Shown in pieces: positions 19,251-46,246 of a DNA stretch of 54,235 nucleotides; positions within the stretch are counted from its first letter, which is position 1; each line of letters opens with the position of its first letter. Below the pieces are notes generated by a model, which was not told the DNA's origin, did no database searches, and saw nothing but the letters and a program-made list of their open reading frames with translations. Source of the stretch: Chloroflexota bacterium. Its GTDB lineage: Bacteria > Chloroflexota > Dehalococcoidia > Lucifugimonadales > JACPQL01. Both the position numbers and the translations under genes were made by a program. The stretch is from contig JACPQL010000001.1 of assembly GCA_016190445.1 (NCBI GenBank), positions 1 to 54,235 on the forward strand, read 5' to 3'.

Positions 19251-19327
19251 TGGTGGAGCTGAGGGGACTTGAACCCCTGACCTCCCCGATACCCATCGGG
19301 GCGCTCCCCCAACTGAGCTACAATCCC
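19251..19327 (-). pseudogene. Abnormal tRNA-Ala-like copy 1 (8-nt anticodon loop containing GGG, damaged acceptor)
   Basis: The body is that of the intact tRNA-Ala at 19582-19657, including T arm, CAGCTCC acceptor strand and encoded CCA. Two parts differ. The anticodon arm is CCCCGATGGGTATCGGGG, a perfect palindrome that gives a CCCCG/CGGGG stem with an 8-nt loop ATGGGTAT. The 5' acceptor strand is GGGATTG instead of GGGGCTG, leaving one mismatch (A4-C69) and one extra wobble. Its first 10 bases overlap the stop region of the GIY-YIG gene. Probably not a decoding tRNA. Confidence 0.7.
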
Positions 19328-19765: not shown

Positions 19766-19802
19766 ACGAGCGCAGGAGACCTGGCCAATCACAGTATACC
19801 AG

Positions 19803-19872
19803 GCTGAGGGGACTTGAACCCCTGACCTCCCCGATACCCATCGGGGCGCTCCCCCAACTGAGCTACAGCCCC
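19803..19872 (-). pseudogene. tRNA-Ala-like copy 4 (palindromic anticodon arm, no 3' acceptor strand)
   Basis: 5' acceptor GGGGCTG, D arm and T arm are intact. The anticodon arm is the palindrome CCCCGATGGGTATCGGGG, and the 3' acceptor ends at CAGC followed by CCTGGTATACTG. It is offset by exactly 107 bp from copy 3 and shares its spacer (…GGCCAATCACAGTATACC on the plus strand), so it arose by tandem duplication. Confidence 0.75.
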
Positions 19873-19917
19873 ACGGATGCAGAAGTGTCCAGCCAGCTAT
19901 AGTATAGCAGAAGGCGC

Positions 19918-45328: not shown

Positions 45329-45535
45329 TGCACTACCTCCATCAGCCCCTCCTTCGTCCCCGGGGCTGTCTGTAGTCCAGTCAATAGATGCCCAAGTATA
45401 GCCACCCCCCTCGTGCAGGACAAGTGGATGTCTTTCTCACCAAGCCCGAGTGTGGCGAGCCCAGCCGACATGGATTATACTTCCCCGCAGCCGGGGACGA
45501 CGGGAGCCGTTACTGGCTCCTGGGAAGGAGCGACC

Positions 45536-46246
45536 ATGACCTGGGAGGAGATGCGGCAGGAGTTGGCGAACTTGAAGACGGCGCTATCGCTGGACCACAC
45601 GCCCATAGGCATCGCCTTTGTGCCTGAGGCGCTTTCCGGCCTCTCCCGGCCTGACCGCCCGGTGCCCTCGGGCTGTTCCTTCTGGCGGATGGCGGAGCGA
45701 GATGTCATCTTCACGGCGCCTGAGGACCACAACTGTCCCATAGGGGTGATGACCATGGGGTTCCAGCTAGCGCCGGAGAAGGAGCCCGAGGCCAAGGCGC
45801 TCCTGGACCTGATGTGCGACTGCGCGTACATCAGCCCCGAAGAGCTTTCGCAGATACCAGGTGTGGAGCGGTCCCACTACGGCATCGTCTACGGCCCCCT
45901 GGGCCAGATGCCGGTGGAGCCCGACGTGGCCTTCTTCGTCTGCCGGCCAGGCCAGGCCATGATGCTGGCCGAGGCCATGGGGAGTGTGGCGTGGAAGGGT
46001 GGCCCGGGTACCCCCGCCTTTGGGCGGCCCGCTTGCGCCACCATACCAATGGCCCTGAAAACCGGGGTGCCCAGCATGAGCCTGGGTTGAATCGGCTCAC
46101 GCGTGTACGCGTCCCTTGAGGACGACGAGATGCTGATGGCTATCCCGGGCTCAGGGCTGCACGGCCTGGCAGAGAGGGTACGCGTGATCGTCCAGGCCAA
46201 CAGCACCCTGGAAGAGCTACATGTGGGGAGACGGGCCCAGTTCTAA
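45536..46246 (+). CDS. DUF169-family protein with an in-frame TGA, candidate selenoprotein
   Basis: Reading from ATG 45536 (GGAAGGAG 5 nt upstream), the frame meets TGA at 46088-46090 (codon 185) and then stays open, with no stop, to TAA 46244-46246. This gives 236 residues, the usual DUF169 length. The N-terminal part fits DUF169 (PIGIAFVPEAL, CSFWRMAERDVIF, CPIGVMTMGF, DVAFFVCRPGQAMMLAEA, TPAFGRPACATIPMALKTGVPSMSLG). The TGA falls in the family's conserved motif SLG-C-xG, and it is followed by IGSRVYASLEDDEMLMAIPG, matching the family's SLGCxGxR...DDEMLxxIP. TGA therefore replaces a conserved cysteine, which suggests selenocysteine. A stop-codon mutation with loss of the last quarter is the alternative. 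Function of DUF169 is unknown. Confidence 0.7.
46099..46124 (+). promoter_or_regulatory. Possible SECIS-like hairpins after the TGA of the DUF169 gene
   Basis: Two mutually exclusive small hairpins are seen. ACGCG-TGTA-CGCGT (46099-46112) has a G at loop position 2, but only 14 nt separate the TGA from that G. CGTCC-CTTGA-GGACG (46110-46124) is better spaced but has its G at loop position 4. Neither meets the textbook SECIS pattern fully. Confidence 0.3.

Follow-up and report, generated by a model that had tools for sequence, protein, structure and literature searches.

A TGA codon at a conserved cysteine of a Chloroflexota DUF169 gene marks a candidate selenoprotein family

Does the TGA codon inside a DUF169 gene of a Chloroflexota bacterium end translation, or is it read as selenocysteine (Sec) in place of a conserved cysteine? 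The gene lies in a 54,235-nucleotide stretch of DNA (the window; contig JACPQL010000001.1 of assembly GCA_016190445.1) that belongs to G000, a metagenome bin of 2.02 Mb in 52 contigs that is 81.1% complete. The original prediction, made from the letters of the window, was that the gene encodes a candidate selenoprotein, and our analysis supports this reading through the Sec machinery of the genome and a second lineage with TGA at the same codon. From these comparisons of sequence, we consider a selenocysteine-containing DUF169 protein very probably the best explanation of the locus.

The reading frame and the cysteine site

The frame starts at ATG 45536, meets TGA at 46088–46090 and then remains open for 51 codons to a TAA at 46244–46246, so that the predicted frame with its single TGA is confirmed at every coordinate. 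The features of the gene are the following:

45536–46246, + strand: DUF169 gene with one in-frame TGA, 236 residues if read through (open reading frame and profile match)
46088–46090, + strand: proposed Sec codon, TGA at the codon of conserved Cys185 (alignment and codon tally)
45525–45530, + strand: AAGGAG, likely ribosome binding site (read from the sequence upstream of ATG 45536)

If the TGA is translated as a residue, the product matches PF02596 at 106.1 bits, against a curated cut-off of 27 bits, with residues 13–213 covering positions 2–208 of the 209-position profile, and it is the sole DUF169 match in G000. When the 236-residue product is aligned to its homologs, the predicted cysteine is found at column 185, where all 16 aligned rows carry it (the query is one of these, its TGA entered as C). 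A tally of this codon in 63 distinct sequences, drawn from 78 hits at fetched loci of the nearer DUF169 clades and made without rows L019, L036, L057–L059 and L065–L094, which are partial or belong to a distant subfamily, gives TGC in 46, TGT in 14 and TGA in 3. The claim that the TGA falls on a conserved cysteine is borne out by these counts, with the limit that Cys185 is not universal across DUF169: in a 63-row alignment that includes seven rows of the distant subfamily, column 185 is conserved as cysteine at a level of at least 90% and is not invariant.

In the same 63-row alignment Cys47 and Cys167 are invariant and Cys67 is conserved at a level of at least 90%, and all three are present in the window protein. 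The cysteine form of DUF169 (PF02596, COG2043) has the same domain at nearly full length and the same other conserved cysteines, and differs in having a Cys codon where the window gene has its TGA. Family-conserved residues 3' of the TGA include R189 and P204. In a two-sided coding score, the TGA at 46088 ranks best of the 569 window TGAs that are flanked on both sides by 15 or more open codons, with a weak score before the codon (1.9) and a strong one after it (16.5).

In the mechanism we propose, SelB with Sec-tRNA(UCA) would decode the UGA at 46088, placing Sec where the family has Cys185 and giving the 236-residue protein; without selenium, translation would yield a 184-residue stub that lacks the end of the SLG-C-xG-R motif.

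TGA and cysteine forms in relatives, and the Sec machinery

An interchange of TGA and TGC at this site in related genomes, which the original prediction suggested looking for, is found within one genus. Two species of that genus, G577 and G492, belong to a different order from G000 and encode proteins 30% identical to that of the window (the G577 form scores 63 bits against PF02596). Both read SVG-TGA-QLSRVRTG, whereas their genus mates G311 and G365 read SVG-TGC-QLSRVRTA. The two TGA genes differ from each other at 20 bases in all. Before the TGA, 14 of the differences are synonymous and 4 nonsynonymous; after it there are 2 differences, both synonymous, and codons 165–212 show none. On a 61-row tree the TGA requires two separate changes, which are forced by well-supported branches, and the window branch is long (0.55). 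Truncation of close relatives at the same point, named beforehand as a sign against selenocysteine, was not seen: the nearest Cys relatives of the window protein (53–57% identical) are full length, and the TGA species are conserved after the site.

The distribution of these forms was surveyed at several taxonomic levels. Within the order of G000, DUF169 is present in 13 of 250 genomes, and only G000 has an internal stop. For the class, 393 genomes were compared, of which 158 match the PF02596 family and 121 match the window protein; among the stronger matches, which are the ones listed, internal stops are seen at the Cys site as TGA in G000, G577 and G492, as TGA elsewhere in G345 and as TAG in G569. 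Of 44 genomes in the family of G577, 17 match, and TGA is confined to G577 and G492, the TAG listed for G311 being the end of its gene. At the level of the phylum there are matches in 76 of 400 genomes, and the window has the only TGA. Among the matches listed in the order, class and phylum searches there are no TGA forms beyond G000, G577 and G492, apart from the G345 gene (L095:3761–4387, + strand, on G345:C7), which belongs to another subfamily and was rejected as a Sec candidate because its TGA lies away from the Cys site, near the N-terminus as judged by eye.

The search for Sec machinery that the original prediction had proposed finds selB, the tRNA-Sec (selC) and selD in G000, and leaves selA as the missing part. 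The tRNA-Sec, with anticodon TCA, is on contig C28 (71.5 bits) and selB is on contig C7 (348 bits). The selD gene on contig C46 (L060:1121–2164, + strand) itself contains an in-frame TGA, in the sequence Cys-Ala-Gly-TGA-Ala-Ala-Lys, and forms one protein of 386 bits when this codon is read through. Across 34 chosen genomes, selB is over its cut-off in 27 and tRNA-Sec is likewise found in 27; all three TGA genomes have both. With respect to the Cys-form genus mates, G311 has selB and tRNA-Sec, and in G365 selB is present and tRNA-Sec was not found.

TGA is otherwise a normal stop codon in G000, with no general reassignment. In 220 called genes from about 322 kb of the bin, the stops are TAG in 130, TGA in 66 and TAA in 24. 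This wider sample led us to reject the impression, given by 18 long open reading frames of the window (TAG 16, TAA 1, TGA 1), that TGA hardly ever serves as a stop. In small, crudely called gene samples, TGA terminates 10 of 24 genes of G577, 24 of 34 of G492, 3 of 9 of G311 and 15 of 36 of G365. As a separate observation, the lead of TAG among the stops of both G000 samples is odd for DNA of 64% G+C.

The recoding signal and the competing explanations

Several results weigh against a selenocysteine at codon 185. No match to selA was found in the 81.1%-complete bin, whose tRNA-Sec gene is 664 bases away from the end of its contig. The Sec machinery is a necessary, not a discriminating, condition, because genomes with the Cys form mostly have it too. 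No TGA form occurs in species close to that of the window, whose own family consists of this genome alone. Identity to the three nearest Cys relatives is 53–60% before the site (97–109 of about 183 residues) and 45–49% after it (23–25 of 51), compared with 58–60% and 54% (28 of 52) between Cys relatives of similar distance. Finally, no hairpin after the TGA stands out from chance: folding compared with shuffled sequences gives no signal for four DUF169 segments of the window (z = +0.83, −0.71, +0.14 and −0.13) or for two of G577 (z = −0.11 and −0.10), and in a scan for a bacterial selenocysteine insertion sequence (bSECIS) the best window structure, at −6.9 kcal/mol, misses the threshold of −7.5 kcal/mol.

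For comparison, the genome offers two genes that appear to use the same system. The second gene of the window that had been described as showing the same pattern with a better SECIS is most likely a SelW/Rdx gene:

1428–1703, + strand: SelW/Rdx gene with a CxxU motif (Cys-Val-Ser-TGA), TGA at 1473–1475 (Rdx/PF10262 match, 61.8 bits)
1489–1509, + strand: strong hairpin after the SelW TGA, 8 bp with loop UGGAU (folding; comparison for the DUF169 SECIS)

From its sequence this gene, whose own stop codon is also TGA, is likely a member of a known selenoprotein family. Both the SELENOW-like protein (Rdx, PF10262) and the Sec-type SelD of G000 have an in-frame TGA, as the DUF169 gene does, and all three would presumably be served by the same SelB and tRNA-Sec. 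In homologs of those two families, cysteine stands at the TGA sites of SelW and SelD. A strong hairpin follows the TGA in each of these two genes, that of SelD having 8 bp and a loop GGU, while none follows the DUF169 TGA. Accordingly, folding of the SelD segment gives z = −3.21 (43 nt) and −2.13 (57 nt); the SelW segment gives −2.56 at 43 nt, but −1.31 at 58 nt.

The doubt voiced in the original prediction about the hairpins after the DUF169 TGA was justified, as we find nothing there beyond chance. The best candidate is weak:

46099–46112, + strand: best simple hairpin, ACGCG-UGUA-CGCGU, loop 13 nt after the TGA, −5.4 kcal/mol; weak SECIS candidate (hairpin scan; folding of longer segments does no better than chance)

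Its loop spacing of 13 nt is below the usual 16. Our bSECIS scan approximates the published model (spacing of 16–37 nt, a G in the first two positions of the loop, at most −7.5 kcal/mol); the G577 form passes it at −10.0 kcal/mol, as do 45% of 60 Cys homologs, and we rejected the scan as support for its failure to discriminate. The folding statistics, with z near 0 for the DUF169 segments, were set aside in the same way. A stricter scan for contiguous hairpins finds Cys homologs that do as well in 5 of 60 cases for the window, 10 of 60 for G577 and 0 of 60 for SelW and SelD. A looser, post hoc hairpin search succeeds in 3 of 3 TGA genes and 3 of 60 Cys genes, which we take only as a lead. Rfam has no match on 46080–46170.

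A second lead comes from comparing the two TGA lineages, which have CGTGTACG in common at the hairpin site, in different reading frames, while it is absent from the 60 Cys homologs. Both lineages contain CG-UGUA-CG, whose loop lies 13 or 11 nt downstream of the TGA. Shared 8-mers at similar places are found in 3 of 675 cross-clade pairs of Cys genes, and in 1 of 15 Cys genes of the other clade there is a 10-mer that the window has too. Since the string was noticed post hoc, and since the G577 hairpin with its UGUA loop has a positive free energy and is unstable alone, we treat it as a lead only. It is conceivable, though we think it unlikely, that DUF169 gained Sec at least twice in one Chloroflexota class and is recoded by a short, close hairpin in place of a canonical bSECIS; if true, the short UGUA-loop hairpin would define a separate class of bacterial SECIS. 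The available parts of one paper state that a subset of bacterial selenoprotein genes do not fit the bSECIS model (PMC13188914), and because some genes misfit it we regard the bSECIS as usual and not as defining. We infer Sec insertion, a signal for it in the mRNA other than a canonical bSECIS, and the role of residue 185.

These results have to be set against the other ways in which a TGA could come to stand at codon 185. A chance nonsense mutation would make this a recent stop, in a pseudogene or a gene for a truncated protein. The original prediction held that such a mutation would hardly pick this codon; the choice of codon by itself is a weaker argument than was claimed, because just 14 codons of the gene can become TGA by a change of one base and a chance TGA would land on codon 185 in approximately 4–7% of cases (5–10% for the equivalent site of the G577 gene). 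The lack of a SECIS beyond chance, the slightly lower identity 3' of the TGA and the internal stops found elsewhere in DUF169, in G345 off the Cys site and as TAG in G569, all fit a chance mutation. What it does not account for is the same codon as TGA in a second lineage, in two species with no amino-acid change after it, the strong coding bias downstream in the window gene, and a site that holds only Cys or TGA in the 63 nearer-clade sequences, and we regard it as improbable. Programmed truncation, with UGA as a functional stop and the short form as the product, would agree with the use of UGA as a normal stop in G000 and with the lack of a strong SECIS after the site; as R189 and P204 are conserved beyond the TGA and this region is kept between G577 and G492, we give it very little credence.

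The remaining alternatives concern the codon itself. The window TGA rests on one metagenome-bin assembly, and a change of one base would turn the TGC of a Cys-form gene into TGA, so that a sequencing or assembly error at 46088 would explain the window gene; the same TGA appears, however, in the two separate assemblies of G577 and G492, and it would be a coincidence for an error to strike this very site in a genome that decodes Sec, which makes this explanation highly implausible. The UGA might instead be read as cysteine or some other residue, either through a suppressor tRNA or through differently charged Sec machinery. Insertion of cysteine at UGA by a non-canonical tRNA-Cys has been described, and selA, whose product makes Sec on the tRNA, is the gene that was not found in G000. 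In contrast, the typical tRNA-Sec, selB and a selD with its own Sec-site TGA favor selenocysteine, and general suppression is unlikely because TGA terminates 66 of the 220 sampled genes, though no genome-wide search aimed at suppressor tRNAs was made; we judge such a reading to have only a slim chance of being correct.

Novelty, predicted structure and further observations

The DUF169 gene is predicted to represent a new selenoprotein family, one without the usual bSECIS hairpin. Table 1 of a 2026 paper gives 119 prokaryotic selenoprotein families or subfamilies (PMC13188914), and DUF169, PF02596 and COG2043 are absent from that table; a groundwater survey of metagenome-assembled genomes cited there could list DUF169. 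In the passages available from the literature on DUF169 and selenoproteins, no DUF169 selenoprotein is described, in accord with the original statement that no published Sec-containing DUF169 protein was known. NCBIfam has no match for the TGA form of the window or of G577. In the accessible portions of two papers, DUF523 and other predicted bacterial selenoprotein families rest on the same type of evidence, Cys/TGA pairs in an uncharacterised family of Sec-using bacteria (PMC12013277, PMC13188914). For DUF523 the published table gives no TGA-bearing homolog elsewhere, whereas two were found here for DUF169, in G577 and G492.

If the assignment is correct, one more family would join the list of about 119, and the Sec site would mark the reactive residue of an uncharacterised family, because selenocysteine is usually found in active or metal-binding sites. 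The interchange of Sec and Cys inside one genus would provide a natural test pair, and the lack of a canonical SECIS would make the gene a useful case for learning which signals in an mRNA the SelB proteins of bacteria accept. Annotation with the standard code would truncate TGA-bearing DUF169 genes.

An AlphaFold model built from the 63-row alignment has a predicted local distance difference test (pLDDT) score of 95.4. In the model, residue 185 follows a strand (180–182) and precedes a helix (186–191), and Cys47, Cys67 and Cys167 are at or adjoining the starts of helices 46–52, 68–73 and 166–176. These three cysteines together with residue 185 may form a Cys-rich redox or metal site, in which Sec would act as the reactive or a ligand residue. 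The predicted fold has no match in the PDB at E ≤ 0.001 and none among viral models, a sequence search for solved relatives returned none (one unrelated match, E = 0.088), and no relatives were found in viral contigs. In the passages available to us, a DUF169 gene is next to a TauE-like gene in Desulfovibrio G20, with a fitness effect on nitrate (PMC4001038), and a STRING link connects DUF169 with YedE, a proposed selenium transporter (PMC5322559).

Two further frames in G000 contain one TGA and show a two-sided coding bias, L177:173–1990 (− strand) and L018:4004–4570 (− strand); their minimum coding scores are 4.5 and 3.2, compared with 2.1 for the DUF169 gene in the same scan. In the window, ARAGORN reports tRNAs with a four-base anticodon (gggt) at 19251–19327 and 19798–19873, both on the − strand near tRNA-Ala and tRNA-Pro genes, and Rfam scores both as tRNA.
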